Positions 5,901 through 26,689 of a stretch of DNA of 64,000 nt are shown one piece after another. The notes under the pieces are model-generated. The model was not told the origin of the DNA, did no database searches, and was given only the letters and a program-made list of their open reading frames with translations. Positions within the stretch are counted from its first letter, which is position 1. The number at the start of each line of letters is the position of its first letter. The translations under genes were made by a program, and so were the position numbers. The stretch is from Bradyrhizobium liaoningense. Lineage in GTDB: Bacteria > Pseudomonadota > Alphaproteobacteria > Rhizobiales > Xanthobacteraceae. The stretch spans positions 1-64,000 of the forward strand of contig NZ_JAFCJT010000001.1 in NCBI RefSeq assembly GCF_018130785.1, read 5' to 3'.

Positions 5901-6605
5901 CAGGCACTTGCGCGCCTTCGCGCGCTACATCAGCGTGTTGCGAGTGCCGAAATTGGCCTCGATGCCGCAACGACAGCCGCGGCGCTCGCCCGACTTGAAG
6001 CAACCATATCGGCGAAAGAGAAACTCATTGCCGACAAGAAAGCATCGAGCCACGCGCGTAAGCCTTGGCGGGAATACTTCGCAGCGATTGAGAAGATCCT
6101 GTCCGACGAACAGGCCGCGGCCATCGCCAACTTCACGCGTCAATACGGCCCGCGGACGTCGGTCATTCAGCGACGGCTTCGATCGGTCTACGGCTTTGAC
6201 GACGTCGAGATCATCAACCGCAGGTCCGAGATTTCGGTCACGGTTAAACGGCATGGTGTTGAGCTGCGACCGGTCGACTATTTCAGCGAGTCCCAAAAGC
6301 AAACACTACAGCTCGGTCTCTTCTTGACGGCCTGCAGCGGACAAAACTGGTCGGCGCTGGCGCCTGTCTTTCTCGATGATCCCGTAACGCACTTCGACGA
6401 TCTCAACATCTATGCTCTGTTGGATTTGATCATGGGTCTGTTGAAGTCAGACTTTGGCACCCGGCAATTCATCATCTCGACGTGTGACGAGAAGTTCTTT
6501 CAGCTCGCGCGGCAAAAATTCAGTTACCTGAGGGACAGCGTGCGCTTCTACCGTTTCAGCGCCATAGGCGAAGACGGTCCGCTCATCGAGCGTATTGGTC
6601 AATGA
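2982..6605 (+). CDS. Rad50/SMC-like ATPase with zinc hook
   Basis: 1207 aa. An N-terminal domain of about 200 residues that I do not recognise is followed by an ABC-type head: Walker A GPNGFGKTS at 234-242, long coiled coils from about 380 to 1060 interrupted centrally by a CPLC zinc-hook motif (703-706), then an ABC signature-like FSESQKQTL (about 1097) and Walker B ending in FLDDP (about 1127-1135). The layout matches Rad50/SbcC-type proteins that tether DNA ends, but there is no SbcD/Mre11 nuclease gene nearby. Its partner instead is the nitrilase-fold protein encoded by the overlapping upstream gene. SMC-like ATPases are the sensor part of several defence systems (Lamassu, Wadjet, ABC-3C types). 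The extra N-terminal domain may bind the partner. Family call is firm; function inferred. Confidence 0.85.
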   Translation: MPALNEGHAEAVKACLGQVPGGTLSMLETGIGLPVTILQTDRVIAAFAFAGSDPHATFEESYEAFKDEAERSKEWDQYDLSYVLCVASDTDKLDQFASDIETDVYFCRKFVVPLSEHVGNALARLPFLPLTQLDGPALRPASAQTFLQQSGVPTNLARQIVAQHERSAERIVEACLTDEYGSPKIPTRVATLSAASDEQTSAPVLLESVTIENFRAYRVPMTFEIGREITVLFGPNGFGKTSFFDAIDFGVTGSIGRLKVTDKNRFNEVAAHLDSKPEEARVALTYRSDGKSHTIERTVSEPARALLDGSPADRKPILKQLTKSGEAVAERVDNLINLFRASHLFSQDNQALMQNLKDHCTLPREIVSRMLAFEDYENALKKSANIVAILKNSLDTLSSEISETTASLKADKSELDGLRRTIKDKSNIGALNAELRNLRAALNDIGVDAGSGAPDATKVRGWRATLEVRIAESDGRIALLSELAKEVVRLSPLIQEGKDLRAQIGAGDSRRLASEQVKASAQQQLDAVRKRVAEIAAQIRQAQSALDNLKWVRDQRPGYASALNSLNAQIARLNQATDAVAADRSRSATASADLQQKSNRLATSVEWQAAARKRFTDLEALRAALSPWKASTDRLAEIKQQEATLNETLQELRSAEPTLQAQLDSNAPQQAALERVIADADRSQSELRQLLSQLQKHIADGNCPLCGVDHGSQDDLVRHIQEKMTLDGAGTARIELAGLQQRIQEIARQLAGNRQAQKSVQAQLTHLANDRIARDREINDWANTADDLGLDASAGLPDLTRQIAANSTEARKDIEDSNAAVKAAADAADAAKTALDVLTKSIAQQETARTRLNTELERIRKGLTTLRSDPRLSGVTLDASNDELDEAEQDRSGLLDELRQSHDAATEEQTRLQGLLDAESRIIAELAGQLPILRRRANENEQARKTIVARLVDAELPEDSDEQELIGKLGEETQALARLRALHQRVASAEIGLDAATTAAALARLEATISAKEKLIADKKASSHARKPWREYFAAIEKILSDEQAAAIANFTRQYGPRTSVIQRRLRSVYGFDDVEIINRRSEISVTVKRHGVELRPVDYFSESQKQTLQLGLFLTACSGQNWSALAPVFLDDPVTHFDDLNIYALLDLIMGLLKSDFGTRQFIISTCDEKFFQLARQKFSYLRDSVRFYRFSAIGEDGPLIERIGQ

Positions 6606-9361: not shown

Positions 9362-10582
9362 GTGGTCGGTAAACTGACGCGATTCACGACGTTACGCCAG
9401 CAGGCCGGCCTGTCCTTCGACGAAGCCATTCATTTGATTGGTGTTTCCCGCAGCACCGGGTTCCGTTACCAGAACGGCAAGACTAGGCTCGAAGGCGCCG
9501 AGCTGAAGCTGTTGGAGCAGGCTGCCGCGGCCCGCGTAGCTGACACTCCCGGCTGGTTCCGTTTCATCGACCTGTTCGCCGGCATCGGCGGCCTGCGAAA
9601 GGGCTTCGAGAGCATCGGCGGCCGCTGTGTTTTCACGTCCGAGTGGGACAAGAACAGCCAGAAGACCTACGCCAACAACTTTCCCGATAATCACCCGATC
9701 GCCGGTGACATCCGCGAGTTTTCAGAGAAACCCGATCTGATCCCGGAGCATGACGTGCTGCTGGCGGGCTTCCCCTGCCAGCCCTTCTCCATTGCCGGTG
9801 TGTCGAAGAAGAACGCACTTGGAAGAAAGCACGGCTTCCTTGACGAGACGCAGGGCACTCTGTTTTTCGACACAGCTCAGATCATCAAGCATCATGAACC
9901 TTCGGCGTTCGTGCTGGAGAACGTCAAGAACCTCGAGAGCCATGACGGCGGCAAGACCTTCAAGACCATCATGAAGGTGCTGACTGATGAGCTGGGCTAT
10001 CATGTCCAGCATCGTGTCATCAGTTCGGAGCCGTGGGTGCCGCAGAAGCGGCAACGCATCTTCATCGTTGGCTTCAAGAACCCGACCACATTCAATTTCA
10101 AGGCGCTACAGTTGCCGCCGGCCGACAAGGGACCGAAGCTCGGCGACATCCTGGAGCCGGAGGTCGATCCAAAGTACACGCTGACCGCACACCTCTGGAA
10201 ATACCTGCAAGACTATAAGAAGAAGCACAACGCGGCCGGTAACGGTTTTGGCTTCAGCTTGTTCGGCCCCAACGATGTCACGCGCACGCTATCGCAGCGC
10301 TACTACAAGGACGGTTCGGAGATCCTGGTAGAGCAAAAGGGAAACCGCCCTCGCCGTCTGACCCCGCTTGAATGCGCGCGCCTGATGGGTTTCGACCGGC
10401 CGGGCAAACCATTCATTCTGAAGGACGTGTCTGACACACAGCTCTATCGGCAGTTCGGGAATGCCGTCGTCGTGCCGGTTGTTGAATTCGTGGCCAAGGC
10501 AGTGAAGCCGCATCTCGTTGAGGCCATCAAGCCTGAACAGGACGCTCAGCGAGCGTTGGACCTACGCGTCGCCAATGGCTGA
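9362..10582 (+). CDS. DNA (cytosine-5) methyltransferase, Dcm/M.EcoRII family
   Basis: 406 aa from a GTG start. Residues 10-50 form an XRE-like helix-turn-helix. The catalytic domain shows motif I FAGIGG (72-77), motif IV PCQPFS with catalytic Cys139, motif VI ENV (186-188), motif VIII QKRQR, and the C-terminal RQFGNAVVVP motif. The stretch GVSKKNALGRKHGF and the target-recognition part (TRTLSQRYYKDGSEIL) closely follow E. coli Dcm, so the target is probably CCWGG, methylated at the inner cytosine; that specificity is inferred. The gene overlaps vsr by 8 bases and leads an M-V-R operon. The N-terminal helix-turn-helix and the upstream inverted repeat point to autoregulation. Confidence 0.93.
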   Translation: MVGKLTRFTTLRQQAGLSFDEAIHLIGVSRSTGFRYQNGKTRLEGAELKLLEQAAAARVADTPGWFRFIDLFAGIGGLRKGFESIGGRCVFTSEWDKNSQKTYANNFPDNHPIAGDIREFSEKPDLIPEHDVLLAGFPCQPFSIAGVSKKNALGRKHGFLDETQGTLFFDTAQIIKHHEPSAFVLENVKNLESHDGGKTFKTIMKVLTDELGYHVQHRVISSEPWVPQKRQRIFIVGFKNPTTFNFKALQLPPADKGPKLGDILEPEVDPKYTLTAHLWKYLQDYKKKHNAAGNGFGFSLFGPNDVTRTLSQRYYKDGSEILVEQKGNRPRRLTPLECARLMGFDRPGKPFILKDVSDTQLYRQFGNAVVVPVVEFVAKAVKPHLVEAIKPEQDAQRALDLRVANG

Positions 10583-11024
10583 CGTCGTCTCTCCGGAGGT
10601 TCGCAGCCGGATGATGTCCGGCATCCGGGGAAAGAACACCAGGCCCGAGATCTTCTTGCGCAAGGGCCTCCACGCGCAGGGCTTTCGCTTCCGCATCCAT
10701 GCGCCATTGCCCGGAAAGCCCGACATGGTTTTCCCGAAGTGGAATGCCGTGCTTTTCGTTCACGGCTGCTTCTGGCACGGCCATAACTGCCATCTTTTCA
10801 AATGGCCCTCCTCTCGCCCGGAATTCTGGCGGACAAAGATTAATGGCAACGTCACGCGTGACGAAGTGAACATCACGAAGCTGCAGGAAGCAGGCTGGCG
10901 GGTCGGAGTCGTGTGGGAATGCGCCCTCAAGGGGCGCACCCGTCTTGACTCTTCGCGCGCCATCGAGAGGTGTTCGAAGTGGCTGAAGTCCAGCAGAAAA
11001 CGCTTTGAACTCACCGGGGCATAG
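10575..11024 (+). CDS. vsr: Very short patch repair endonuclease
   Basis: 149 aa. Vsr nicks beside the T of T:G mismatches left by deamination of 5-methylcytosine, starting very-short-patch repair; it normally accompanies Dcm-type methyltransferases. The family pattern is clear: RSRMMSGIRGKNTRPE at the N terminus, a PDMVFP segment with the catalytic Asp, and FVHGCFWHGHNC with zinc-binding and catalytic His/Cys residues. The ATG at 10575 is chosen because it gives the standard MADVVSPEVRSRMM start and overlaps the end of the methyltransferase gene by 8 bases, implying coupled translation. An in-frame upstream extension is possible but would lie entirely inside the methyltransferase gene. Confidence 0.93.
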   Translation: MADVVSPEVRSRMMSGIRGKNTRPEIFLRKGLHAQGFRFRIHAPLPGKPDMVFPKWNAVLFVHGCFWHGHNCHLFKWPSSRPEFWRTKINGNVTRDEVNITKLQEAGWRVGVVWECALKGRTRLDSSRAIERCSKWLKSSRKRFELTGA

Positions 11025-11025
11025 A

Positions 11026-12249
11026 ATGCAGCGAGGGCTTCTGTCCGATTACTTCGATGGAGTTGCTGTCAAACGCCTCAGCGCCGTCGAGGCCGATCCA
11101 AGGCGTTCGCACCAGCACGAATTTCAGGGCGGCCATCTCCGCAGGCTGCTCGGCGATGATGACCGGCTTAAGATCCCTGCCCGGTTCATCTGGCTCAGCG
11201 ATGAGCAGGAAGCAATCTCCGAGGACAGCGTCGTAAGCTGGTACGACGCTCGCAGGAAGCAGGCGCACAGATCCGCGGAGTACCGTCTCTACTATTATGC
11301 GAATGGCGTCACAGCATTGATGGGCGCAGGCGACACATTCTTTGTTGCGATGCGACCTGACGGGACGGCGATGATCATCGTAACGCCCAGGGACAGCACG
11401 ATCCAGAGCCAGCTCTTTTACCTGTTTGGCCTCGAAGAGCAGCCCGACTTGACCTTCAGAGTGAAGGAGATCCCGGAAGACCAGTCATCGCGGCTCGACT
11501 TTGCGGCACGGTACATTCTTGACGAGCTCGGGATCGATGCCGAGGAGCCGGAAGCAGACAAGCTCGACAGCATCCTTGAGCCGTTTGGCATCAACTTTCC
11601 CGCCACTGCTGACTTTTCAAAGCTGGCAAGGGACTCGCTGGCGGACGTGAGTGCCAACGACAACGCTGATGCCGTGCTCATGGCGTGGATCGAGCGCGAA
11701 GAACTTTTATTCAGGCGGCTGGAGCGGCTCGTCGTTGCCGACCGCCTGCGAGCCGGCTTTCTTGCTGACAAGGTTCCGGATGTGGACGGCTTTATCTCGT
11801 TTTCCCTCAGCGTTCAGAACCGGCGCAAATCGCGCGCGGGCAAGTCGCTGGAGCATCACGTCGCTGCGTTGTTCTCTGCCCGCGAGCTGAAATTCGAGCG
11901 CGGTGTTGAGACCGAGCTGCGCAACAAGCCCGATTTCCTTTTTCCCGGCAAGGCCGCGTACCACGACTCGGAATTCAAGGCCGAAAAACTGACTATGCTC
12001 GGCTCCAAGTCGACCTGCAAGGACAGGTGGCGCCAGGTGCTTTCGGAAGCCGAGCGCATTCCGCACAAGCACCTGCTCACGCTGGAGCCCGGTATCTCGG
12101 AGAACCAGACCGACGAAATGCGCGCCAAGAAGCTGCAGCTTGTGCTGCCGGCCGCCCTCCACGTCACCTACCGTGATGTCCAGAGAAGCTGGATGATGAA
12201 TGTCGAGGACTTCGTAAATCTGGTCCAGACGAGGCAGATTGCCGAGTGA
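11026..12249 (+). CDS. EcoRII-like type II restriction endonuclease
   Basis: 407 aa, starting one base after the vsr stop codon. The C-terminal catalytic domain has the EcoRII pattern: RAGKSLEHHVAALF, then NKPDFLFPG with the metal-binding Asp (about residue 304), then LGSKSTCKDRWRQVL with the catalytic Lys and Arg, and HLLTLEPG. The N-terminal 160 residues are the EcoRII effector-DNA domain (pseudobarrel), with the motifs QHEF.G, WYDAR and EYRLYYY.NGVT. In EcoRII this domain binds a second CCWGG site and relieves autoinhibition. Together with the upstream Dcm-like enzyme and Vsr this forms a complete restriction-modification unit. The N-terminal domain is duplicated as a separate gene immediately downstream on the opposite strand. 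Confidence 0.9.
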   Translation: MQRGLLSDYFDGVAVKRLSAVEADPRRSHQHEFQGGHLRRLLGDDDRLKIPARFIWLSDEQEAISEDSVVSWYDARRKQAHRSAEYRLYYYANGVTALMGAGDTFFVAMRPDGTAMIIVTPRDSTIQSQLFYLFGLEEQPDLTFRVKEIPEDQSSRLDFAARYILDELGIDAEEPEADKLDSILEPFGINFPATADFSKLARDSLADVSANDNADAVLMAWIEREELLFRRLERLVVADRLRAGFLADKVPDVDGFISFSLSVQNRRKSRAGKSLEHHVAALFSARELKFERGVETELRNKPDFLFPGKAAYHDSEFKAEKLTMLGSKSTCKDRWRQVLSEAERIPHKHLLTLEPGISENQTDEMRAKKLQLVLPAALHVTYRDVQRSWMMNVEDFVNLVQTRQIAE

Positions 12250-12270: not shown

Positions 12271-12912
12271 TCACCATTCGCCATCTTGAGACTGAAACTG
12301 GTTACCAGATGTCGATGCCTTGCTTAGTCTCCGTTGCAGCTCCCGAACAGCGGATCGTATCTCCGGCCGCTCCTCCTCAAGTGCTGCGTGACTCTCAGCT
12401 TCCCAGGCCGAGGGCAACTCGGAAAGACCGATTTGCAATCCTTCACTCAGTCGCTCTTTATCCGTGCGCTTGAGATCCAGAGCCGCAAACGCAGCACCCG
12501 GCTTGATTTCGATACCGAACAGCCATGCAATGCGACTGGCAGCTGCTCCGGTAGACGGAGCCGTCAACAAGAATGTCGAACCATCGAACTTGCGACCGAT
12601 GAGCAGCGAATCTCCTGCAGACGCCTTTTGCGTGACGGAGTTATCGTAGTAGTAGAGCCGATACTCAGTCCGGGTCGGGTGTCGGGCTCTCGCGTCGTAC
12701 CAGGTCAACATTCCTGATGCAGACGTCAACTCGCCCGCGCTGGACATTCGATGAAAGTCCGTTTGAAGACGCTGTGGCTGTTGCCGTCCGAACAAATCAA
12801 TCAAGGGCTTCGAGCCATTAAACTCATGTTGATTTGATCGTTTGGCGTCGACCTCCACCGGGGCCAGCTGCTTTACCACTACACCGCGAAATAGCTTCGA
12901 AAGAATGCCCAT
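12271..12912 (-). CDS. Stand-alone EcoRII N-terminal-domain-like protein
   Basis: 213 aa from the ATG at 12912. Its first 150 residues align without ambiguity to the N-terminal domain of the neighbouring EcoRII-like endonuclease: FRGVVVKQL against FDGVAVKRL, SNQHEFNG against SHQHEFQG, WYDAR, EYRLYYYDNSVT, AGDS, LFGIE..P. The nuclease domain is absent; the rest is a charged helical tail. In EcoRII this fold binds the recognition site without cutting. The gene is last in the operon led by the ankyrin-sigma protein and starts 14 bases after the AIPR stop. I infer a DNA-reader subunit that brings the GHKL/Z1/AIPR complex to the same sequence that the adjacent methyltransferase modifies. A solo anti-restriction competitor is an alternative. 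Confidence 0.8.
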   Translation of the reverse strand: MGILSKLFRGVVVKQLAPVEVDAKRSNQHEFNGSKPLIDLFGRQQPQRLQTDFHRMSSAGELTSASGMLTWYDARARHPTRTEYRLYYYDNSVTQKASAGDSLLIGRKFDGSTFLLTAPSTGAAASRIAWLFGIEIKPGAAFAALDLKRTDKERLSEGLQIGLSELPSAWEAESHAALEEERPEIRSAVRELQRRLSKASTSGNQFQSQDGEW

Positions 12913-12926
12913 ATCGATCGCCGTGT

Positions 12927-14708
12927 CTATCGAGACAACTCCGGAATGCCGGCTGGTATCGGTGGAAACGTGCCTGATTGAACCCTCGCCCAGCACTCCT
13001 CCTTCTTGGCCCATTCTGAGATCTGGGCGCCGGCCGCAGTTTGTCGCAGGACCTCATCCATTCTGGATGCGAGTACCTTTGCAAAAGCGGACAACTGAGG
13101 CGAAATTGACTGACGCTGCCAAATCGACTCCAGCGATATTTTATCCCGGACTTGCTCGGCAAGCCAGGAAACCGTGTACGCAGTGATGTTCGCCTGCGCC
13201 TGATTGAAGTCGCCTGCGAGGACGATCTTGTGCACTGCCTTGAAGATTATAGCTTGAGCGATCAGCTGCTTGTAACCGGCAACATCGAGCGATACCGACG
13301 CGGCGGCACTTTCAGGGTCCGACATAAACCGATCGAAATTCTTCTGGCTCCCCAGCGAAACAATATGTGGGTTGCCTGACCAGGCCTGGATGTACTTTGC
13401 CAGATCTGTCTTGCCAAACTTTCTGGACGAGGGAAGCATCTCCCTGATCTTTTTGAGCTTCGCTGGCGTAGTGCCTTCCCGTGCAAGCATGACATTGTAG
13501 CTACCCGACGCACGCTCGTAAAACCACCTACCAACACCATCGGGGCAGTAGGTCGCTAGGGCCAGCTTCTCGAGCTCGATGTGGAAGGGCTTGTTCGCAG
13601 AAAGGTCCGACACCTTCACCGCGTTCTGGCTGTTAGCGTATTTTGAGATATCGCCAATCAGAATGTCTTCCGATTCCGGATCATGACGATGAAGAATAAT
13701 AACCTTTGCTGGCACTCTGACGCGTCCGAGATCGACTTCGGGGTGCTTGCGTTTGGTAAAGTAAATAGACGCGGTAGTTTGACCGCCATTAACAATTTGC
13801 ATTCCTTTCAGCCACGACAGCCCGGTAGAACCGTCAGATGTGCGTGAGAAGCTTGCTTCATCAGCGATCAGAACGATTCCATTGTTGTAAGCCATGAAGC
13901 GCTCTGGCGCATCGCGCAATGTATCCCGGATACCCTTGTTCACTTTTCCAGTCTGGCTCAAAAACGACCGCACGTTGGCCTCCAGAAGGCGCGCCCCGTA
14001 CCGATCATACAATAGACGGAGAGCGTTGCCCGGCATCGCCGTCAGCGCATAGTCGTAGTCCTCGTCTTCGCCAGGGACATACACGCACGGTATGGCAGAT
14101 CCACATATTTCCTCGAAGTTCACCACCAGTTCATCACGCGGCTTGCCCTCGGACCAATGTCGGTAGAGGCGCTCTATGTCCATCGCCTCAAGTCGCACCG
14201 ACCGGCCCGCGACTTCCTTCGATTTGAAGGACTTCGTCTTGGCCTGACGGTCAGTGATGACGTAGACCCGGATTTGCTCCAGTTCGGCGTAGCAATCCCT
14301 GATCGTCAGACAGAGCTCATATGCATCATCCGAGGGATCAATGGCGTTCGCCAGCGTTCCATCTGCAGCCTTGCCCAAAAATCTCAGGCACTGCTCTGCA
14401 GCTTTAACGACTTCGCTGTCTGGAATGCTCTCTACGGTGTCCGTTCCGGCATAGAGCGTAACAAACAGATCAAGCTGGTCGGCATCATCCGAAACAGCGT
14501 AGCCGTTCAGCTTCAGCATCGCTCCACTGATTTTACGCTCGATATGAAGCGGCCGCGTATCGAACGTCATGCCGCACTCCGACAGGTGCTGCATAACCAC
14601 ATCTGTGAAGGCCGCCTCTGCTTTTAGGTACCCTCCTTCTGCCATCCGTTCGCTCACGAGCTTACGAACGTCGCCTTGTGTCTGTACGAGAAACTCTTCA
14701 AGGGTCAT
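12927..14708 (-). CDS. AIPR family (abortive infection phage resistance) protein
   Basis: 593 aa. The central region carries the AIPR signature: EANVRSFLSQTGKVNKGIRDTL, FMAYNNGIVLIAD, and MQIVNGGQTTASIYFTKR, followed by an ISKYANSQNAVKVSDL segment. AIPR proteins were first found in lactococcal abortive infection systems and are a named component of Mza-type loci; their biochemical activity remains unclear. The N-terminal 200 residues look like a separate alpha/beta domain. The start overlaps the upstream DUF4420 gene by 4 bases (ATGA type), and the EcoRII-N-like gene follows 14 bases after the stop, so this protein is made within one operon. Confidence 0.9.
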   Translation of the reverse strand: MTLEEFLVQTQGDVRKLVSERMAEGGYLKAEAAFTDVVMQHLSECGMTFDTRPLHIERKISGAMLKLNGYAVSDDADQLDLFVTLYAGTDTVESIPDSEVVKAAEQCLRFLGKAADGTLANAIDPSDDAYELCLTIRDCYAELEQIRVYVITDRQAKTKSFKSKEVAGRSVRLEAMDIERLYRHWSEGKPRDELVVNFEEICGSAIPCVYVPGEDEDYDYALTAMPGNALRLLYDRYGARLLEANVRSFLSQTGKVNKGIRDTLRDAPERFMAYNNGIVLIADEASFSRTSDGSTGLSWLKGMQIVNGGQTTASIYFTKRKHPEVDLGRVRVPAKVIILHRHDPESEDILIGDISKYANSQNAVKVSDLSANKPFHIELEKLALATYCPDGVGRWFYERASGSYNVMLAREGTTPAKLKKIREMLPSSRKFGKTDLAKYIQAWSGNPHIVSLGSQKNFDRFMSDPESAAASVSLDVAGYKQLIAQAIIFKAVHKIVLAGDFNQAQANITAYTVSWLAEQVRDKISLESIWQRQSISPQLSAFAKVLASRMDEVLRQTAAGAQISEWAKKEECWARVQSGTFPPIPAGIPELSR

Positions 14709-15721
14709 GGCTGACTCACTCCAAAGCGTGCGAGCGCCTCCGCATGCGAGACCGTCGCTCCGTTCACAAGTTCAAGATCGATCTCATAGGTTGCCGATCT
14801 TATGGCGGGTGGTACCGAACTGCGAACAAGGCATGGAAATGCGTTATCGACTTCCAGAATACGCATTTCGATGAGCGCCAGCCGCCGAGTGTACAGTGCT
14901 TCAGCCTGCGGCTCGTAGCCTGCCAACAGCAGAGCGCGGTCGAGCGACGTCAATATGGAAGGCAAATGCGCGACTTTATCTCGCAGATCGACGACCAGTT
15001 CCGGAAGTGTCTCCCCGGACTGCTGCTCACACAGGCGCATCGCCGCGAGCAAGATAGCGCGACCGGCCAGACTATCGAGCTGTTCAAGGGAGCTTATCTG
15101 GGAGGGAAAGCCATTTGCGGAAGTCGTCGACTTGACCTCAATTCCTACCGTATCGGTCTGGAAGTCCTGAAGCCCTCCGCGCGGGCCTACCCACGCCTGA
15201 ACCAGCAGGTTGGCAACTGCTCCAGCAGCCAGCGACGAGCGAAGGAATGACAGCTCGCCAAAGAGGCCAATCTCCTCCTCCAGCGAGAGCCGGTCAGACT
15301 TGGGCCTGCGCATAAAATCTTGCCACGCGCGGATTCTGGCCAACATGAGAGAGAGCAACCAGGCTTCCGACTGCGGGGTCGATCCTGAAACAGCGGCGAC
15401 CACGTCAGCCGCCATCTGCACGAACAAGGCAAGACTGCCTTCACGAACGAGACAGATTCCAGTTTTGAAGCCCGGCACGGGCGACTCTTTAGTGACCTCA
15501 ACCCGAAATCCGAAGCCCTCCGGCAACTGAGCTTTGGGGGGCGCCGTTTCAACGTCAAAGCCGACCAGCAGAACTTCGCTGGCCTCCGGGAATTTAACGC
15601 CCCCCCGGAACCGGGGTCCGGAATGACCCAACGCGACCGAAAGTATCCCGTGTTCCGGCTTCTGCCCAGCAAGCGCATTCCAGGCCGCCTCCAGCTCTTC
15701 CGTGTCAGTCAGCACCGCCAT
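14705..15721 (-). CDS. PD-(D/E)XK motif protein (DUF4420)
   Basis: 338 aa. A nuclease-like core is visible: Glu156 in the FGELSFL helix, Asp186 in GGLQDF, and Glu195-Val-Lys197 in GIEVKSTTS, i.e. the D...ExK arrangement of the restriction endonuclease fold. The family (DUF4420) is known from loci with Z1 and AIPR proteins and is the probable nuclease of this system. It overlaps the Z1 gene upstream by 17 bases and the AIPR gene downstream by 4 bases, so stoichiometric co-translation is likely. Confidence 0.87.
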   Translation of the reverse strand: MAVLTDTEELEAAWNALAGQKPEHGILSVALGHSGPRFRGGVKFPEASEVLLVGFDVETAPPKAQLPEGFGFRVEVTKESPVPGFKTGICLVREGSLALFVQMAADVVAAVSGSTPQSEAWLLSLMLARIRAWQDFMRRPKSDRLSLEEEIGLFGELSFLRSSLAAGAVANLLVQAWVGPRGGLQDFQTDTVGIEVKSTTSANGFPSQISSLEQLDSLAGRAILLAAMRLCEQQSGETLPELVVDLRDKVAHLPSILTSLDRALLLAGYEPQAEALYTRRLALIEMRILEVDNAFPCLVRSSVPPAIRSATYEIDLELVNGATVSHAEALARFGVSQP

Positions 15722-18539
15722 ACTCCTGCATCCAGGCGACGTTGTTCACCTTGTACTCAACCTTCGTGCCAGACTCGCTTGCCGGAAAGCTGATGCCGAA
15801 CCCAACGACGGGAGGCAGCCCGGCCAGACGGGCGTCATCGGCTTGAGCGGGGTCAAGCAAATAGAGAAGAAGGAGGCCGCGTTCCGGATGACCGTCTTGC
15901 CCGTTGATGCCCTCACCTCGTACCCGCCTGATTGCGGGGCCCGATGGCTCCGACGGTGCCTCTGTCGACTTCGAGCGGGCCGGGTCAGGCTTCCAGCTCG
16001 CTTGCGTGGCCGACAGCGCCGCATTCCACTCAGCGGCATTCAGATCGAGACCCTCATCGCGTGGCGAGAGCAATCGACCAATTGAATAACGCCCCTCAGC
16101 CCCTTCTGAAGCACGCTTTAGCATGGATACACTCAAACCATCAGAAAGGCTGCAAGACTCACCGCGACCGCCTCCGATAACAGCGACGGTCCACTTCGTA
16201 AGCTCTCCCACCGCATTCATCTTGCCGATGAACTCCGCCAGAAGGATGCTATTGACCTTGTAGGCGACCGGGTGCGTCTTATAGCCATTCAAAAACGCAA
16301 TGACATCACTTCCAGCGACCCCTTCCCACAACCTACCCTGCCAACGTTGCGTCGTTTCTCCTCTATTGCGCTCGGGATCATCTTCTCCGTCTCCAAGACG
16401 CGAAACGAATTGTCTGGCCGCGTCCAGATTGCGGGCCAATATCGCAGGATCGGTGAACAGAGTGACTGTTTCGGAAACCTGACCGCTGAACGACAGCATC
16501 AGGCTCTTGGCCGCCCTCATTTTCAACCGCGAAGTCACGAGCAAGACCGGATGCGACTGCACCTTCAACCCGTATTCCCTTGGGGTTGCGCCTGAAGCCG
16601 CCATAATATCGAATTCTTCCCGCAGCTCCTCCGCGGCGTCTGCAATGTGGCCAAACCAGTCTGCGAGCTCAGCCGTGGTGTAGAGCCGACAAAGATCGAT
16701 GTAGCCCGGCCGATAACCGAACCAGCGCCCCATCTGCATCAATGTGTCGTACATTTTGGATGTGCGCAGGAAGTAGCTGACACACAGGCCTTCGAGTGTC
16801 AGACCTCGCGATAATTTATCTCCGCCGACCGCGATGACCTTCAGACCAGGTCCGGTCTGGTCGGCATAGTCCAGAGCATCCTTTGCGGTACCGTTGATCA
16901 TCCGCACATCGACATCTGCCACTATCAAGCGAACTGATTCAAGAACATCCGACCATGCAGGCGGGTCCATCTGATCAACGAAAGACGGAAAATTGCGCCT
17001 TGCACTTTCGATTGTTGGCAGGAAGTCACTGTTCCATAGATGCTCAAGTCGCGCTTCGGCATCTTCGTGACCGATGCGACGCACCAGCCGCTGCCGCAGC
17101 GACAGCACGTGCTCTTCGACACGTTGATGGACAATCTTCTGAACGGACGTGAATCGTGTGACATGCACGAGCATCGAGCAATGGGCAGCTCCCTGACCGC
17201 GCAGCTTTCTGACAGCGCAGGAAATCAGGAACGACTCTATCGCACGCTCGAGCGATTCCGGGATTCCCGTGTCCCTCTCGGAGACTGGAACGTACCCGTT
17301 TTTGTGCGTATGTGGCATCCAGCCACCCTTGCCATCTTCGCTGACGTGATCCTTGATTTCACGGTACAGGGGAAGCCCAAGAGTCCGACCTGCATCCGAT
17401 CGCAATCCAAAAATCTGGGCTGGGCCAACGTAGGTCGAGGGAGCGGCCAGGTTTGCAATAAAGGCCGACGGAAACAGGTCGGGCCCCTCCTCTGCAGTTT
17501 GTCCCCGTTCGTGAATGAAGATGTTCGCGAACGGTGTTGCCGTATAGCCCACATAGGCAGATCGGACGAACGTGTTGAGAATCTTGCGCGTCAGACTATT
17601 GATGGCCGTGGGCTCGTGCTCTTCATCCGGCAGGCCATTCTCGTCGAAGATTTGCTCTCCGGTATCCACCGACGCGTGGTCGGCCTCGTCATCGATGAGC
17701 AGCAGCGGCAGCCGTCTCACAACCTTGCGCCCGTTTGCGTCCTGATTGTCGGCGACGTGATGCCGGATCCAGGCCAGCAGCCTCGTCAGGATCGTTTTGT
17801 TTTTCTTGACCACAAAGAGCCACGGCCGCTGCTCTGGCGTTATGCCCAGCGTGTTCGCGCGTGCGGTGTTAAAATCGCCATTGTTCGTCCTGTTGGTAAC
17901 GTAGTTCGGCCGAATTGCTGGGTCACGATCGATCAATCCAACGCCAATTTCGCGAATGTCGTCTGCAATCGGCCGGGTCTCGTAGCCCAAAAACCCCTCA
18001 TCCAGCCGCATCTGGGTCTGCGATCGCAGATTGTTGTGAAGCCCGGCGAGGACGATGATGATCTTGTAGCCAGCGTCCGCCGCCTTGCAAACAAGCCCGG
18101 TGTAGTTTCCCGTTTTACCGGACTGAACGTGACCAACTACAAGGCCCCGCCGATCCCACGGACCTTCTCGTAGTGGATCCTCGAGCATTCCGAGTATCGT
18201 GTCGGTAGATCGATCGAGTGCATCGACGGCCAGAACCGACATTCGCGATTCAAGATATTCACGATAGCGCTGCCAGTAGCGCCAGTCTGTCTTGCGCGCG
18301 GCCTCAAGCCACGGCTTGTGACCGTCGTCATTGTGGATCGTTGAGTCCGTTCCCACCCACAGACTGAATCGCCTCACAAGTTCCGCAATGGCTGCCTCGC
18401 GATCAAACCCGTTCTGCCAGCTTGGCTGGAACGCGAGCACCTGATCAATCTTCGCGTTGATAAGCGCCGGACTGACGGTATTACGCTCCTCGTTGAGCAA
18501 TAATTCCTGGGCAAACTTGATAACACTCTGGTTGCTCAC
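15705..18539 (-). CDS. Z1 domain helicase-like ATPase
   Basis: 944 aa. The Z1 domain is recognised by a P-loop GHVQSGKTG (136-144) followed by IVLAGLHNNLRSQTQ, a DEAD-box-like IDDEADHAS (282-290), and later the GGDKLSRGLTLEGL segment with helicase motif V/VI character. Z1 proteins are superfamily II-related ATPases tied to restriction-like systems containing MORC/MutL-type ATPases. The gene follows the GHKL ATPase gene by 13 bases and overlaps the DUF4420 gene by 17 bases. Likely task: ATP-driven translocation or remodelling on DNA for the system's nuclease. Family assignment is firm, mechanism inferred. Confidence 0.92.
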   Translation of the reverse strand: MSNQSVIKFAQELLLNEERNTVSPALINAKIDQVLAFQPSWQNGFDREAAIAELVRRFSLWVGTDSTIHNDDGHKPWLEAARKTDWRYWQRYREYLESRMSVLAVDALDRSTDTILGMLEDPLREGPWDRRGLVVGHVQSGKTGNYTGLVCKAADAGYKIIIVLAGLHNNLRSQTQMRLDEGFLGYETRPIADDIREIGVGLIDRDPAIRPNYVTNRTNNGDFNTARANTLGITPEQRPWLFVVKKNKTILTRLLAWIRHHVADNQDANGRKVVRRLPLLLIDDEADHASVDTGEQIFDENGLPDEEHEPTAINSLTRKILNTFVRSAYVGYTATPFANIFIHERGQTAEEGPDLFPSAFIANLAAPSTYVGPAQIFGLRSDAGRTLGLPLYREIKDHVSEDGKGGWMPHTHKNGYVPVSERDTGIPESLERAIESFLISCAVRKLRGQGAAHCSMLVHVTRFTSVQKIVHQRVEEHVLSLRQRLVRRIGHEDAEARLEHLWNSDFLPTIESARRNFPSFVDQMDPPAWSDVLESVRLIVADVDVRMINGTAKDALDYADQTGPGLKVIAVGGDKLSRGLTLEGLCVSYFLRTSKMYDTLMQMGRWFGYRPGYIDLCRLYTTAELADWFGHIADAAEELREEFDIMAASGATPREYGLKVQSHPVLLVTSRLKMRAAKSLMLSFSGQVSETVTLFTDPAILARNLDAARQFVSRLGDGEDDPERNRGETTQRWQGRLWEGVAGSDVIAFLNGYKTHPVAYKVNSILLAEFIGKMNAVGELTKWTVAVIGGGRGESCSLSDGLSVSMLKRASEGAEGRYSIGRLLSPRDEGLDLNAAEWNAALSATQASWKPDPARSKSTEAPSEPSGPAIRRVRGEGINGQDGHPERGLLLLYLLDPAQADDARLAGLPPVVGFGISFPASESGTKVEYKVNNVAWMQEYGGAD

Positions 18540-18552
18540 GAGATCGATTCCT

Positions 18553-20046
18553 TCATGTCCGCTTCAACGTCGCGATGAAGCCGGTCCAGTTATCAAACGG
18601 CTCGGTGACTGCGAGCTGACGGCGTGCAGCGTCCTCGCTCATGCCTTTCCGGATCACGAGGTTGTTGAACAATGTCTGAGCGATCGACTTGACTTCTTCG
18701 GGGGGCATTCCATCAAAGCCAATTCGCGGCGCCTCCTTTGCCTCGGCAGTGTCGAGCCAGATTTGCTGAACCGGAACAGTCTCCTCGATGACTCTCAGCA
18801 TTGCGACGACGTCGTCGCGCATTGCACCAGACTGGTCGAGGACGGAAGCCACTGCCGGGTGATCACGCTCAATTCTGTAGCGCAAGCCGTCAGCACTGCG
18901 CGTCGCTCGCCATGCAGGCGAAATCGGACCGGATTTTGACCCGCGTTCCCTCTTCCCACGGAATGCAAAGACCCGGCGCGCCCGCTGGCGAACGTCTTCA
19001 GCAAAAAGAGAAAGCCGCTGTCTTGCCTCTTGTGGCGGGCGCGCGGTCGACTTTCGGATGTCGATCTTCCAGTCTTCATCCGCGCTGTTCGGAATGTCCA
19101 GCCTTATGCGCGCTAACTTGAACGGCTCTTCTTTTGTCCACGATCGCCCCTGACCAAGACCGAGCCAGTGACCGGCGACAAGAAGGCGTTCATGTCGATA
19201 AACGTAGAAACCTTGTTGGGAAGTCCAGCCGTCGGGACCCGCCGCGTCTTCATAAACTTTTGGCGGGAGCCGGTCCTTGTGGGGCAGCACAAAGCCTTCG
19301 ACAGTGATCTCACGTCCATTAACCGGGAATCGGTCGGCACCGGATCTCCAGGTGTCGGAGCGAGCAGACAGGAATGGATCCCATGGACGAATTGGCGATC
19401 CGTTAATTCGCACCGTGAGCCGGCGCCCCTCCAGAAATCGGTGAAATACCATCGAGAGATGCTTTTCAACTCGATCGACCAACGTAAGGAAATGCTTGTC
19501 AGTCACTCCGGCGGAAACGATACGGTCCAGGTTCTCCCAAAGGACAATCGTGCCTGACGTCATCTTCTCCAGAGGCGCCAGCAGGGTCGCGGATTCGGGG
19601 GCCGCGCCTTCCAGCAGCGTCCACTCGCCTTTTGGGTCGTCTCGCAGCACATCAAGATCCCAACGAAGACAAGAAACCGGTCCCTCGCGCCTCGAAGCGA
19701 CCGTAAGTCTCCTGGCTTGGGAAAACGATGCAGTCTTCAGACCAAGGCCGAAACGACCGAGATCGCTCTCACAACGGTGATCGAGAGGGCTCCGCTCACC
19801 AAGCCTCATCGCCAAGTCGAGAGCAGTCGCGTCCATGCCCGAGCCATTGTCCACTATGGCAATTGAACTTTGTTTGCCACTCCAGTTGAATTGAACGTCA
19901 ATTTCTGACGCGCCCGCGGCAATGCTGTTGTCTATGACATCCGCAATGGCTGCCGCTGGAGAATAGCCCAGGCCTCGCAGGGCCTCGATCATGGCGCTGG
20001 CACGCGGCGGTGCGTTGCGCGAAGCCGGCGCAGATCCTTTGCTCAT
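18553..20046 (-). CDS. GHKL-type ATPase (MORC/MutL-like)
   Basis: 497 aa. The Bergerat ATP-binding fold is clear: N box ADVIDNSIAAGA (Asp39-Asn40, with Asp where MutL has Glu), motif II DNGSGM (66-71), and motif III GRFGLGLKTAS (97-107). A second half with alpha/beta S5-like character and a basic helical tail follows. Comparative work on MORC ATPases placed such proteins in prokaryotic restriction-like operons with Z1, PD-(D/E)XK, Dcm and Vsr genes, which is the neighbourhood seen here. The start codon overlaps the end of the sigma-factor gene by 4 bases. Expected to dimerise on ATP binding and clamp or scan DNA. Confidence 0.9.
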   Translation of the reverse strand: MSKGSAPASRNAPPRASAMIEALRGLGYSPAAAIADVIDNSIAAGASEIDVQFNWSGKQSSIAIVDNGSGMDATALDLAMRLGERSPLDHRCESDLGRFGLGLKTASFSQARRLTVASRREGPVSCLRWDLDVLRDDPKGEWTLLEGAAPESATLLAPLEKMTSGTIVLWENLDRIVSAGVTDKHFLTLVDRVEKHLSMVFHRFLEGRRLTVRINGSPIRPWDPFLSARSDTWRSGADRFPVNGREITVEGFVLPHKDRLPPKVYEDAAGPDGWTSQQGFYVYRHERLLVAGHWLGLGQGRSWTKEEPFKLARIRLDIPNSADEDWKIDIRKSTARPPQEARQRLSLFAEDVRQRARRVFAFRGKRERGSKSGPISPAWRATRSADGLRYRIERDHPAVASVLDQSGAMRDDVVAMLRVIEETVPVQQIWLDTAEAKEAPRIGFDGMPPEEVKSIAQTLFNNLVIRKGMSEDAARRQLAVTEPFDNWTGFIATLKRT

Positions 20047-21878
20047 CGGGATGCCTGCAGCAGCTTGAGACGCGCGGGGTGACTGAGAATTCGCAACGCC
20101 TTCGCCTCGATCTGACGAACCCGCTCTCTGGTAACATCAAAGCGCTGGCCTATTTCCTCTAGCGTCTGGTCGTCGATACCTCCCAGCCCGAAACGAAGGC
20201 GAATGACGTACTCGCTGCGCGGTGGCAGCTTGCTCAACAAACCTCCCAAAAGGCGCTTCAGAGACTTCTCGTGCGGGATTTCATCTGCAGGGGCCAATTC
20301 CGTGTCGGCCAGTCCTGCGGGGATATTCCCGGTAACGACGCTGGGTATCTTGAAGAGCCTGCTTGCAACAGCGGTCGAGCACTCAAGTTTTACGGCCAAT
20401 TCTTCTACGGTTGCATCCCGATTAAGCGCCGCCTTGGTCGCTTCGCGAACACGCGCCGATTTTCTCAAAGTTTCGGCGAGATGAACCGGAATCCGGATTA
20501 CGCGCGACTGATCATCAACGGCGCGTAACATACTTTGCCGAATCCAGTATGTTGCGTAAGCGGCGAAGCGTGTCTGTTGTGAAGGATCAAACTTTTCAAC
20601 CGCACGCATGAGACCAAGAGTGCCTTCCTGGATGAGATCTTCCAGCGGAAGCCCTCTGCGAGAATATTTCCGTGCCCAGAACGGCAAAAGCTTAAGGCCG
20701 CCCTCCATCGCCCGGTCTCTGGCCTTGCGATACTTCGCGAGAGTTTTCTGAAGCGTGAGCACGGCAGGGTGAGACTGCTGGTCGACAAGCCTTGAAAGCA
20801 ATTGGCAAGCCGTCTCGAAAGGTAGACGACCGAGCTGAGCTTCAGTGTCTTGCACAACAATACCGGAGAGCGGATCTGCCTCATCTAGCGTTTCCGCTGC
20901 GTCGTCGTCCGACACGGTTTCAGCCTGGTCTTCAGATACTGCGCCGGCAACGCGCATGCAAACCGCAATTCCCTCAAGCAACTCTTCTTTGGCGTTGGCG
21001 AGCTCTCGAAAAATGCGTCTTTCGCGATCCAGGCTGAAAGACGTGTAGCGATCGATATCGCCCAAAAATCTGTCGGCTATCGTGAGATCCTGGGCTAGCT
21101 CATCCTCTAGGTGAGCAATTGCACTCTCGACCTTGTCAACATCAGACGGAGCGACGGCGGCCTCGCCGCGGCTGCTCCAGGTCGCATCTTTTCGACCAGA
21201 CGTGACCTTGATTCCAGCTTCCTGCATGACAGTGCAGAACAGCTGAAACTGGGCAGCAGTGGCGCCCGGCCAAACGCTTCGCAGCTTCTTGACCGGGATG
21301 GACCCTGCCGCGATGGCCGCGGCCATCGTCGATCTTGCGTCAACAGAGAAAGCCAACGGCTGGCTTTGCCTACTGCTCGGAAGCGCAATCTCGACGAACG
21401 ACCATTCGTCGTGTTCTTCCTTCAGACGATATACGGAGATCGCATCCTGGATTTCGTGACACACTTCGTTGGAGGAATGCGTGGAAGCGGGAAGGAGAAA
21501 CTCTTCTTCGGGTTCCCATTCGCCCGCGATATCGTCCCGGTCGACGTCGGACGCGGGATCTTCAACCGGCCGGGTCTGAAGAACGGTGATTGGCTTCGAG
21601 AGCCGAACAGCCAAATCGTAATGTCCCTCCACCTCAGCGAGCCGCGAGGCAGTCCGACCTTCCGAGTCTTCGAGAAAAGGATCCGCTCCTTCTTCAAGCA
21701 ACAACAAACAAACGTCAGTGCGTCCTGCCTGAGCCGAGATCATGAGAGGTGTGCGGCCCGAGGAATCCCGACCGTTTGGCGAAGCGCCTCTCCTGAGATG
21801 CAACAAGACGAGACTCTGCTGGCCCTTCGAGAGAGCCAGGCGAAAGAGCGGCGGGATCGCTACCGTCGGATCAAGCAA
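20043..21878 (-). CDS. Ankyrin-repeat/sigma-70 fusion protein, first gene of the Mza-like operon
   Basis: 611 aa from a TTG start at 21878; no ATG or GTG lies further upstream in frame before a stop, and the first internal Met (46) would cut into the repeats. Residues 8-95 form ankyrin repeats (ASPNGRDSSGRTPLMISAQ, ADPFLEDSEGRTASRL). Residues 195-225 resemble sigma region 1.1 and 275-300 region 1.2. Sigma domain 2 covers about 385-450 (LEDLIQEGTLGLMRAV, ATYWIRQSM), domain 3 follows, and domain 4 (550-605) has the helix-turn-helix TLEEIGQRFDVTRERVRQIEAKAL. It is a full RpoD-like protein with an added protein-binding module. It overlaps the GHKL gene by 4 bases, so it is translated together with defence proteins. 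A role in sensing phage proteins or redirecting RNA polymerase is inference. Confidence 0.88.
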   Translation of the reverse strand: MLDPTVAIPPLFRLALSKGQQSLVLLHLRRGASPNGRDSSGRTPLMISAQAGRTDVCLLLLEEGADPFLEDSEGRTASRLAEVEGHYDLAVRLSKPITVLQTRPVEDPASDVDRDDIAGEWEPEEEFLLPASTHSSNEVCHEIQDAISVYRLKEEHDEWSFVEIALPSSRQSQPLAFSVDARSTMAAAIAAGSIPVKKLRSVWPGATAAQFQLFCTVMQEAGIKVTSGRKDATWSSRGEAAVAPSDVDKVESAIAHLEDELAQDLTIADRFLGDIDRYTSFSLDRERRIFRELANAKEELLEGIAVCMRVAGAVSEDQAETVSDDDAAETLDEADPLSGIVVQDTEAQLGRLPFETACQLLSRLVDQQSHPAVLTLQKTLAKYRKARDRAMEGGLKLLPFWARKYSRRGLPLEDLIQEGTLGLMRAVEKFDPSQQTRFAAYATYWIRQSMLRAVDDQSRVIRIPVHLAETLRKSARVREATKAALNRDATVEELAVKLECSTAVASRLFKIPSVVTGNIPAGLADTELAPADEIPHEKSLKRLLGGLLSKLPPRSEYVIRLRFGLGGIDDQTLEEIGQRFDVTRERVRQIEAKALRILSHPARLKLLQASR

Positions 21879-23129: not shown

Positions 23130-23438
23130 GTGAGCAGCAACTTGGCACATCGGGAAATAACACCCATCAAACGCACCATCCGGCGAGATCAGCTTCGCGA
23201 GATGGTCCCGCTCGCCGACAGCACCATCTATGAGATGGAACAGCGCGGAGAGTTTCCAAGGCGGTTCGCGCTCTCGCCCCGGTGTGTCGTGTGGGACCTC
23301 GCGGAGGTCGAAGCATGGCTGGCTGCGCGCAGAGCGACACCTCTTGCTCGTGCGCCTCATCCTGATGTCAGGCAGCGACGAACCCGGCCGGTCAAAGTGC
23401 CGGGTCGAGCTGCAGGAGCGGCATTGAAGGGGGAATAA
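23130..23438 (+). CDS. AlpA-family phage/island transcriptional regulator
   Basis: 102 aa if the GTG at 23130 is used; a TTG at 23142 is another option and the true start is uncertain. The core is typical AlpA: IRRDQLREMVPLADSTIYEMEQRGEFPRRFALSPRCVVWDLAEVEAWL, a winged helix-turn-helix (shown here in pieces: REMVPLADSTIY and FPRRFALSPR). AlpA proteins activate the integrase or excision genes of P4-like and other islands. Its 3' end overlaps the 3' end of the integrase gene on the other strand by 47 bases, so the two are convergent. Confidence 0.75.
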   Translation: MSSNLAHREITPIKRTIRRDQLREMVPLADSTIYEMEQRGEFPRRFALSPRCVVWDLAEVEAWLAARRATPLARAPHPDVRQRRTRPVKVPGRAAGAALKGE

Positions 23439-24648
23439 GGATCGGGATGTATTTCTGGCCACCAACCCAGGCATCAATGATGTTGGACCACTCCTGCATC
23501 ATATGACGACGCTGCACCTCGTATTCGGCCTTGTTGTAGACGCCCCTTGATGACCGCCCGTCCTCGTGCGCAAGGCACTTTTCAATCCAGTCGCTGTTGA
23601 ATCCGAGCTCGTTCAGAAGGGTTGACGCGGTCCTGCGCAGATCATGAACTGTGAACGGCTGCAGCGGAAGCCCTTCCTTGCTTGCCTGCTCGACGACCGA
23701 ATATGTGACCCGGTTGAACGTTGCCCGCGACATGGGAGCGTCGGCGTCATAGCGCGACGGCAGGACATACCTTGAATTTCCCGCACAGGTCTTCAACGCG
23801 ATGAAGATATCAAGCACCTGGCTCGAGAGATACACGTTGTGCGCCTTCGAACGCTTCATGCGTTCCTTGGGGATCGTCCAGACCGCATTCTCGAAATCGA
23901 CTTCGTCCCATGTGGCATCCTGCAGTTCGCTCTTGCGGACCATGGTGAGCAGATAAAGACGCAACCCAAGCCTGATGGTTGGCAGTGTCGCAACATGAGC
24001 CAGTTGTTTGAGCATGATGCGGATTTCGGCGGGTGAGAGCGAGCGGTCTCTCGGGACAAAGCTTGCGATCGATGCCGGTCCAACCTCGTCGGCCGGGTTT
24101 GCGATATTCTCTCCGTGCAGGATCGCGAACCCGTAGATCTGTTTCACGATGTCCCGGACGTGGATCGCTGTTGCGGGAGCACCGCGCTCGACGATAGCTG
24201 CGCAATGGGCGCGAAGGTCGCCAGGCGCGATCTCATTCAAAAGGCGCTTGCGCCAAACGGGAAGCAGTTCGCGCTCGAAGATCGATCGCCGCATTGCCCG
24301 GGTGCTATCGGCCATGGGCGCCGCGACGAGCCACTTCTCTCCGAGCTCACCGAAACTCCTGGCTTCAAGGAGACGTCGCTTCTCGCGCTGCTTCTCAATA
24401 GCGGGGGACCGCCCCTCGCCTACTGCGCGCTTCGCATCGATGCACTTCTCGCGAGCGCGTGCGAGCGACAACCCTGTCGGGCCGTACTTTCCGAAAACCA
24501 CAGTCTCGCGTCGACCATGCAAACGGTAGTCGAGCCGGAACGATAGCGTCCCCGCGGGCGATACAACCACGTACATGCCGTCGCGGTCGGTGACCTTGTA
24601 CGATTTTTCCTTTGGTCTCAGCGCCTTGAGCGCAGCGTCTGTCAGCAA
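23392..24648 (-). CDS. int: Tyrosine-type site-specific integrase (DUF4102/P4-like)
   Basis: 418 aa from the TTG at 24648, preceded by GAGGAGAAG at good Shine-Dalgarno distance. The N terminus is the arm-binding DUF4102 domain (LTDAALKALRPKEKSYKVTD, ... RLDYRLHGRRETVVFGKYG). The catalytic domain shows Arg in TMVRKSEL, HxxR in VHDLRRTAS, His in CLAHEDG and the nucleophilic Tyr in GVYNKAEY, so the enzyme looks intact. The gene reads away from guaA, whose 3' end is 290 bases upstream, as expected for an island that inserts at the guaA terminus. Confidence 0.93.
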   Translation of the reverse strand: MLTDAALKALRPKEKSYKVTDRDGMYVVVSPAGTLSFRLDYRLHGRRETVVFGKYGPTGLSLARAREKCIDAKRAVGEGRSPAIEKQREKRRLLEARSFGELGEKWLVAAPMADSTRAMRRSIFERELLPVWRKRLLNEIAPGDLRAHCAAIVERGAPATAIHVRDIVKQIYGFAILHGENIANPADEVGPASIASFVPRDRSLSPAEIRIMLKQLAHVATLPTIRLGLRLYLLTMVRKSELQDATWDEVDFENAVWTIPKERMKRSKAHNVYLSSQVLDIFIALKTCAGNSRYVLPSRYDADAPMSRATFNRVTYSVVEQASKEGLPLQPFTVHDLRRTASTLLNELGFNSDWIEKCLAHEDGRSSRGVYNKAEYEVQRRHMMQEWSNIIDAWVGGQKYIPILIPPSMPLLQLDPAL

Positions 24649-24960
24649 GGACTTCTCCTCCAGGCAAAATACCGTCTGCCACTTTTGAGCTGCGTTTGAC
24701 CGGAGATTTCCTTGTTTTACAGTCACTTGAACAAAGAAAAATGCCGTCAGACGCATCTTCGCGCATGACGGTATTGATCAGGATCGGTGGTTTCAATGGA
24801 CGGCGACACCGTCAGGTGCTCCGTCAGCCCGGATTCGTGCGTGCCGATAGTTCTCGAATGTCTATGACGAATTCGATCGCAAAATCAGGCCGTTAAGTCG
24901 CGCAATTGGATGGATCGGGATAGTCCCGGACGGGCCCGAATTATTCCCACTCAATCGTCC
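24649..24960. other. Probable att region: integrase promoter to guaA 3' end
   Basis: The 290 bases between the integrase start and the guaA stop have no gene and should hold the integrase promoter, arm sites and the crossover. The last 20 bases (24941-24960) are the guaA stop and terminal codons (PGTIEWE), the usual target of guaA-specific integrases. A CGGGA-TAG-TCCCG hairpin at 24917-24929 and a CGGGCCCG palindrome follow guaA and could act as its terminator or as recombinase arms. The exact core cannot be fixed without the other end. Confidence 0.6.
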
Positions 24961-26539
24961 CGGGCGGCTTGCTCGTCACGTCGTACACCACCCGGTTCAC
25001 GCCCTTCACCTCATTGATGATGCGCGTGGCCGTCTCGCCGAGAAACTTCATGTCGAACTGGTAGAAGTCGGCGGTCATGCCGTCGGTTGAGGTGACGGCG
25101 CGGAGGCCCACGACGTAGTCGTAGGTGCGGCCGTCGCCCATGACACCCACCGTCTTCACCGGGAGCAGCACGGCAAAGGCCTGCCAGATGTCGTCGTAGA
25201 GGCCGTGCTTTCTGATCTGGTCGATGTAGACGGCGTCGGCCTTGCGCAGGATGTCGAGCTTGTCCTTGGTGATGTCGCCGGGGCAGCGGATGGCGAGGCC
25301 GGGGCCCGGGAACGGGTGACGGCCGACGAAGATTTCGGGGAGACCGAGCTCGTAGCCGAGCTTGCGCACCTCGTCCTTGAACAGCTCGCGCAGGGGCTCG
25401 ACGAGCTTCATGTTCATGCGCTCGGGCAGACCGCCGACATTGTGGTGCGACTTGATGGTGACTGAAGGTCCGCCGGTGAAGGAGACGCTCTCGATCACGT
25501 CAGGATAGAGCGTGCCTTGCGCCAGGAAGTCGGCGCCGCCGATCTTCTTGGCCTCCGCCTCGAACACCTCGATGAAGAGGCGGCCGATGGTCTTGCGCTT
25601 GGTCTCGGGGTCGGTGACGCCTTCGAGCTCGCCCAAAAACTGCTTGGAGGCATCCACGTGCACGAGCGGGATGTTGTAGTGGTGGCGGAACAGGTCGACC
25701 ACGGTCTTGGCTTCGTCGAGGCGGAGCATGCCGTGATCGACGAACACGCAGGTGAGCTGGTCGCCGATCGCTTCATGGATCAGCACGGCGGCCACGGCCG
25801 AATCGACGCCGCCGGACAGGCCGCAGAGCACCTTGCCCTTGCCGACCTGGGCGCGGATCTTCGCGATCTCCTCCTCGCGGAAGGCGCGCATGGTCCAGTC
25901 GCCGGACAGGCCTGCGATCTTGCGGACGAAATTGCGGATCAGCTTGGCGCCGTCGGGCGTGTGCACCACTTCGGGGTGGAACATCAACCCGTAGTATTTG
26001 CGCGTCTCGTCCTGGATGATCGCGAAGGGCGCGTTCGGCGAGGTGCCGGCAACCGAGAAGCCCGGCGGCATCTTGGTGATGCGGTCGCCATGGCTCATCC
26101 AGACCTGGTTCTTGCTGCCTGATGACCAGACGTCCTCGAACAGCTTGCTCTCGGCCTTGACCTCGACATCGGCGCGGCCGAATTCGCGGTGATGGCCGCC
26201 CTCGACGGTGCCGCCAAGCTGCTCCGCCATGGTCATCTGGCCGTAGCAGATGCCGAGCACCGGCACGCCGGACGCGAAGATCAATTGCGGGGCGCGGGGC
26301 GAGCCGGCCTCATGCACCGATTCAGGCCCGCCGGAGAGGATCACGGCTTTCGGCTTCATCTCGTTGAAGGCCTGTTCGGCCTTGTTGAACGGGACGATCT
26401 CGCAATAGACGCCGTCCTCGCGCACGCGACGCGCGATCAGCTGCGTCACCTGGCTGCCGAAGTCGACGATGAGAATCTTGTCGTGCGCCGAGGCCACCGA
26501 GGGCGTCGACGCGGAGCGGTCGTTCTGTGCTGCTGTCAT
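24941..26539 (-). CDS. guaA: GMP synthase (glutamine-hydrolysing)
   Basis: 532 aa from the ATG at 26539 (MTAAQNDRS); an in-frame extension to 26596 is possible but unlikely. It converts XMP to GMP using glutamine and ATP. The N-terminal glutaminase domain has [12 protein letters not shown] with the catalytic Cys and the later [11 protein letters not shown]is-Glu pair; the ATP pyrophosphatase domain has the P-loop LSGGVDSAV; the C-terminal dimerisation domain ends in KPPGTIEWE. The 3' end is intact, meaning the island inserted without destroying the gene. guaB lies 9 kb downstream on the same strand in this window. Confidence 0.97.
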
Positions 26540-26689
26540 GGCCAGCAGATACGCGACCGCGCCCCTGCCCGCAACCGCGTGGGTGCGCGCGCCCACATTC
26601 TTCTTTGGGCATGGACAAACGGGTATAGGTAAGTATTATTGACCTAATTTGCCTCGCACGTCAAACAGGGGCCAATCAGGGAGACCGCC

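Follow-up and report, generated by a model that had tools for sequence, protein, structure and literature searches.

A predicted Mza anti-phage operon with a sixth, EcoRII-N-type gene next to an EcoRII–Vsr–Dcm cassette in Bradyrhizobium liaoningense

The first 64,000 nucleotides of contig NZ_JAFCJT010000001.1 of Bradyrhizobium liaoningense (NCBI RefSeq assembly GCF_018130785.1; hereafter, the window) carry, as judged from profile matches, a divergent form of Mza, a known anti-phage operon; its protective role here is predicted. Six genes in the order MzaA-B-C-D-E-F occupy the minus strand at 12271..21878, and what is new here is the sixth, F, together with its pairing with a restriction endonuclease of the EcoRII type. 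We propose, at a probability of about 0.45, that F, a lone relative of the DNA-reading domain of the neighbouring EcoRII, would allow the Mza machinery to detect foreign DNA through its lack of the methyl mark of the host. The genes concerned are listed below (aa, amino acids).

20043..21878, minus strand: MzaA, 611 aa, ankyrin N-terminus followed by sigma-70 regions 2 and 4 (PADLOC MzaA 2.3e-61; NCBIfam NF041931 9e-114, 381.8 bits; Pfam Ank_2, Sigma70_r2, Sigma70_r4)
18553..20046, minus strand: MzaB, 497 aa, GHKL ATPase (PADLOC MzaB 2.1e-179; HATPase_c_3)
15705..18539, minus strand: MzaC, third in the mzaABCDE order
14705..15721, minus strand: MzaD, 338 aa, PD-(D/E)XK DUF4420 protein (PADLOC MzaD 1.1e-48; DUF4420 1e-62)
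12927..14708, minus strand: MzaE, 593 aa, AIPR protein (PADLOC MzaE 2.4e-213; AIPR 3.6e-90, AIPR_N 1e-47)
12271..12912, minus strand: F, 213 aa, stand-alone protein with a predicted EcoRII-N-type B3 domain (247 homologues, clade, fold match 3hqf)
11005..12249, plus strand: restriction endonuclease of the EcoRII type, 414 aa, facing F in convergent orientation (EcoRII-C 6.5e-70; N-domain 36% identical to F)
10518..11024, plus strand: Vsr endonuclease (Pfam Vsr 3.1e-27; PADLOC Vsr 3.1e-40)
9362..10582, plus strand: Dcm-like 5-methylcytosine methyltransferase, 406 aa (DNA_methylase 1.3e-81; NCBIfam dcm 301 bits, above the cut-off)

A preliminary description of this DNA had proposed a six-gene operon of the Mza kind. 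Its coordinates and spacing are confirmed (overlaps of 4, 17 and 4 bases and gaps of 13-14 bases, with F following mzaE after 14 bases), and the PADLOC and NCBIfam models that match MzaA-E bear out the Mza identity. The ATP-site residues of MzaB are kept in 94 copies, and residues E156, D186 and E195-x-K197 of MzaD in 97.

F itself has no match in Pfam, NCBIfam or PADLOC, and neither an EcoRII-C domain nor a nuclease was detected in it. The search for relatives returned 247 homologues, the best 120 of which are mostly 190-260 aa long and lack an EcoRII-C domain. In a tree of 91 N-domains, thinned from 165 rows, 48 stand-alone rows including the F of the window form a single clade with a support of 100/100; nine further rows without a recognised catalytic domain lie among the EcoRII N-domains and one lies beside the F clade, and some of these ten may be fragments. 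No chain in the PDB matched the sequence profile of F or that of MzaC. The AlphaFold model of F has a mean predicted local distance difference test score (pLDDT) of 73.8, with blocks over residues 1-130 averaging 77-93 and the remainder poor, and its best PDB match is 3hqf, the N-terminal effector domain of EcoRII in complex with DNA, followed by other B3 domains. In this model, F has a B3 fold that is nearest to the EcoRII effector domain. F thus shares a predicted fold with the effector part of EcoRII, a type IIE endonuclease, but differs from it in lacking the EcoRII-C catalytic domain and in forming a clade of its own. Ten residues (S26, N27, Q28, H29, E30, R75, R81, E83, R85, and Y87) are conserved in 112 F proteins and common to EcoRII N-domains, in a comparison from which 13 rows (fragments or rows grouping with EcoRII) and 8 of 41 EcoRII rows, all distant, were removed; by analogy with the B3 fold, they would belong to the DNA-reading loops.

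Mza loci with F were read in five genomes: the window, Pseudorhizobium pelagicum (L003), a plasmid of Neorhizobium petrolearium (L102), a plasmid of Agrobacterium pusense (L103), and the Rhizobiaceae genome G1127 (L161). All five genomes contain the EcoRII–Vsr–Dcm cassette, which adjoins Mza in four of them and is convergent with it in the window, in tandem in L003, and divergent in L102 and L103. These changed arrangements suggest that the pairing was kept through rearrangement. In the genome scan, where the set of MzaC loci consists of the best 80 of at least 570 relatives, EcoRII was found in none of the other 79 loci within the flanking DNA examined. The Fisher value for the co-occurrence of F and EcoRII is 3e-8, but it takes no account of shared ancestry, and we do not treat it as a probability. 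The same association could mean that F guards against the neighbouring EcoRII by occupying its sites or effector positions, thereby damping cleavage of host DNA. A free reader recognising the same site as EcoRII would indeed compete with it, and among the Mza loci read, F occurs only where EcoRII is present; however, it is the Mza operon, not EcoRII, that the gene for F belongs with, and the EcoRII genes of other genomes occur without a stand-alone F, so that we consider such a guard very unlikely.

Methylation is linked to Mza well beyond the loci with F. A DNA methyltransferase lies within 4 kilobases (kb) of Mza in 50 of the 52 complete loci, defined as those of the 80 in which MzaB, D, and E are present with at least 3.5 kb on each side. 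No Dcm match was found more than 4 kb from Mza, which is a weak control given flanks beyond the operon of only some 3.5-7 kb. In the window, the 5-methylcytosine methyltransferase of the cassette adjoins Mza, and its protection of the site of F is putative. The complete loci lacking a Dcm match are L005 and L068; both are also among four loci (with L007 and L008) that have a second, longer AIPR-type open reading frame (ORF; 883-1102 aa) after MzaE. Beside seven other Mza loci (L019, L050, L056, L060, L104, L123, and L127) there is a restriction-enzyme family; the copy scanned, that of L104, consists of AspBHI_N and Mrr_cat, a type that cuts in a modification-dependent manner, even though a 5-methylcytosine methyltransferase is linked.

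Alternatively, Mza and the EcoRII cassette may be independent defence modules that travel together, with F as a minor accessory. MzaA-E would then be an abortive or nuclease system set off by phage, perhaps sensing through the ankyrin-sigma protein, and methylation would play no role. Such modules do cluster, since Lamassu genes are found in the same island; moreover, most Mza loci lack F, and MzaE is an AIPR protein, of a class whose name refers to abortive infection. Nevertheless, the linkage to methyltransferases is far tighter than loose clustering in islands suggests, and F sits inside the Mza operon and accompanies EcoRII in all five of the Mza–F genomes read. On balance, we find this explanation rather doubtful.

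Several observations weigh against a role of F in letting Mza recognise unmethylated DNA. Since only one of the 80 MzaC loci has F, there must be some other trigger or reader for Mza at large. The identity of F to the N-domain of the adjacent EcoRII is 31-36%, and a common target is therefore not assured. The five loci with F share ancestry, so their co-occurrence with EcoRII does not amount to five independent events, and in G1127 the cassette is on a second short contig (L162), close to its end. Contact among MzaA, MzaC, and F is putative. Finally, the CglI and NgoAVII restriction-modification systems combine the B3 domain and a PLD nuclease in one fused protein and involve no GHKL, AIPR, or sigma gene, whereas F is a B3 fold alone and the nuclease-like gene of the window encodes a separate DUF4420 protein. 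By analogy, the system of the window may work like CglI, yet it is not classed as CglI-type. A likeness in gene content is offered by the MORC/paraMORC operons, in which, in the parts of the article that were available, a GHKL ATPase is associated with a third type of SFII helicase, a restriction-fold nuclease, Dcm, and Vsr, with AIPR in a figure legend (Iyer et al., 2008, PMC2292703). The same parts assign a VP1/RAV (B3-type) protein and EcoRII-like nucleases to operons of the SWI2/SNF2 type, and the introduction's account includes no sigma gene.

A DNA-binding domain that stands alone, with no nuclease, also has the shape of a regulator, and F might, as a free B3 domain, bind at the operators of Mza or of the restriction-modification genes, controlling their expression in the manner of a C protein. 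A short conserved block, GTTGTTTTTTTA ... TCTGCAATG, is indeed common to the regions upstream of mzaA in L003 (6360-6660) and in L102 and L103 (5720-6020) only, and its sequence is possibly that of a promoter or operator. However, no such block was observed in the window, and CCWGG, if this is what F reads, occurs in only two of the eight upstream regions (the 300 bases that precede mzaA and those that precede dcm, for four F loci) and in neither of the two in the window, which makes regulation an unlikely function for F. A check for depletion found CCWGG 49 times in the island against 54 expected, and 82 times against 105 in the rest of the window.

The search for a shared site upstream of mzaA more generally, such as self-activation by the sigma factor would involve, yielded none that was convincing. 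The -35/-10 consensus scan gave p <= 0.05 in one of 49 upstream regions (60 shuffles each). De novo motif scores, for which 44 of the 49 regions were taken in, exceeded those of four shuffled sets at three widths (47.5 vs 41.4-46.2; 85.8 vs 68.1-79.8; 117.1 vs 92.8-102.4), but with 40 starts for the real set and 20 for the shuffled ones, and with sites at scattered positions. In L014, a WYL-domain regulator (5385-6284; Pfam) lies directly upstream of mzaA, and members of the same family occur at most 5 kb away from Mza in eight loci, L014 among them.

The ankyrin-sigma70 protein, which the preliminary description had considered a possible unusual extra, is MzaA according to the PADLOC and NCBIfam models, and its status as an additional gene is thereby ruled out. 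The title of NF041931 is 'MZA anti-phage system associated sigma-70 family RNA polymerase sigma factor MzaA', and a 2022 paper (PMC9523054) calls mzaA a sigma factor; the sigma gene in the Mza operon is already known. The roles that the preliminary description suggested for this protein, in sensing phage, in directing RNA polymerase to its own operon or as a decoy for anti-sigma factors, are putative. MzaA is present in 43 of the 80 MzaC loci, in each case on the same strand as MzaB and directly upstream of it, within 100 bases. A profile search, with a profile built from eight of the MzaA copies, detected the ankyrin N-terminus in 44 of 50 MzaA proteins, and two of the six without it (L009 and L125) are short frames. 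With a known MzaA model and this frequency of the ankyrin module, the fusion is ordinary for Mza. In the window, MzaA retains sigma-70 regions 2 and 4 (Sigma70_r2 7.5e-18; Sigma70_r4 1.9e-16) and matches the strict patterns for 2.2, 2.4, and 4.2, which are matched by 37, 26, and 21 of the 50 copies, respectively. Parts of the transcription machinery recur next to Mza: four Mza-like loci without MzaA (L041, L043, L063, and L072) carry Sigma70_r4 proteins, some with a domain resembling the RNA-polymerase alpha-CTD (C-terminal domain).

Mza reportedly goes back to Gao et al. in 2020. The operon of the window has all five mzaABCDE genes in the same order, led by the sigma-70 MzaA, but differs in its sixth gene and its EcoRII–Vsr–Dcm cassette. 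In addition, the NCBIfam scores are below the equivalog cut-offs for MzaA (381.8 of 800 bits), MzaB (716.9 of 850), MzaC (1347.9 of 1500), MzaD (297.7 of 420), and MzaE (902.4 of 1050), and the operon is therefore a divergent Mza rather than an equivalog of the reference. It is also distinct from a published system described as about 20% identical to mzaBCDE and as having mzaA in only a few members, in a section that makes no mention of F; here, MzaA-E match the Mza models. The accessible portions of the open-licence literature contained no description of a stand-alone EcoRII-N/B3 gene in Mza loci.

F is rare. Conservation in related loci, raised in the preliminary description for both genes, held for the sigma gene, but the EcoRII-N-type gene is confined to one clade: apart from the single locus among the 80, it was found in three Mza loci obtained separately and in the window. 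Among 397 genomes sampled from the order, 385 from the class, and 265 from the genus, a stand-alone F was found only in the window's own genome, besides two weak matches in the class sample (frames of 343 and 140 aa), and one of 394 Rhizobiaceae genomes has it. The three matches in viral contigs comprise a pair of EcoRII enzymes and a short frame in which the catalytic profile is missing. When 120 MzaC clusters were compared with 118 F clusters (two more F clusters lacked a contig), the coinciding size of the longest contig tied F clusters to 13 MzaC clusters in ranks 1-28 and to none in ranks 29-120; outside Rhizobiaceae and the window's genus, the tie between F and Mza rests solely on such coincidences.

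The surroundings of the operon have further features of a defence island. The Lamassu genes LmuA (PADLOC, 865 bits) and LmuB (1581 bits) lie beside the cassette at 1181-6605, and an ORF with an SRAP domain is located at 43-783. On the other side, a tyrosine integrase adjoins an ORF that we take to be guaA-like (23392-26596), and the G+C content is 0.53-0.62 up to 26 kb but about 0.66 beyond, a step like that found where an integrated island ends. Two pairs of 18-19-base repeats that could be attachment sites were found in the window, neither of them at the integrase or at guaA, and the far end of the island is outside view because the window begins at the contig start.

More tentatively than the role proposed for F, Mza could be the missing restriction half of the widespread, orphan-looking Dcm–Vsr cassettes: a modular, ATP-driven machine, gated by methylation and with a sigma factor of its own at its head, which F, as a free-standing B3 specificity subunit, would here re-target to the EcoRII code. 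If this is true, one methyltransferase would guard two different restriction engines at once.
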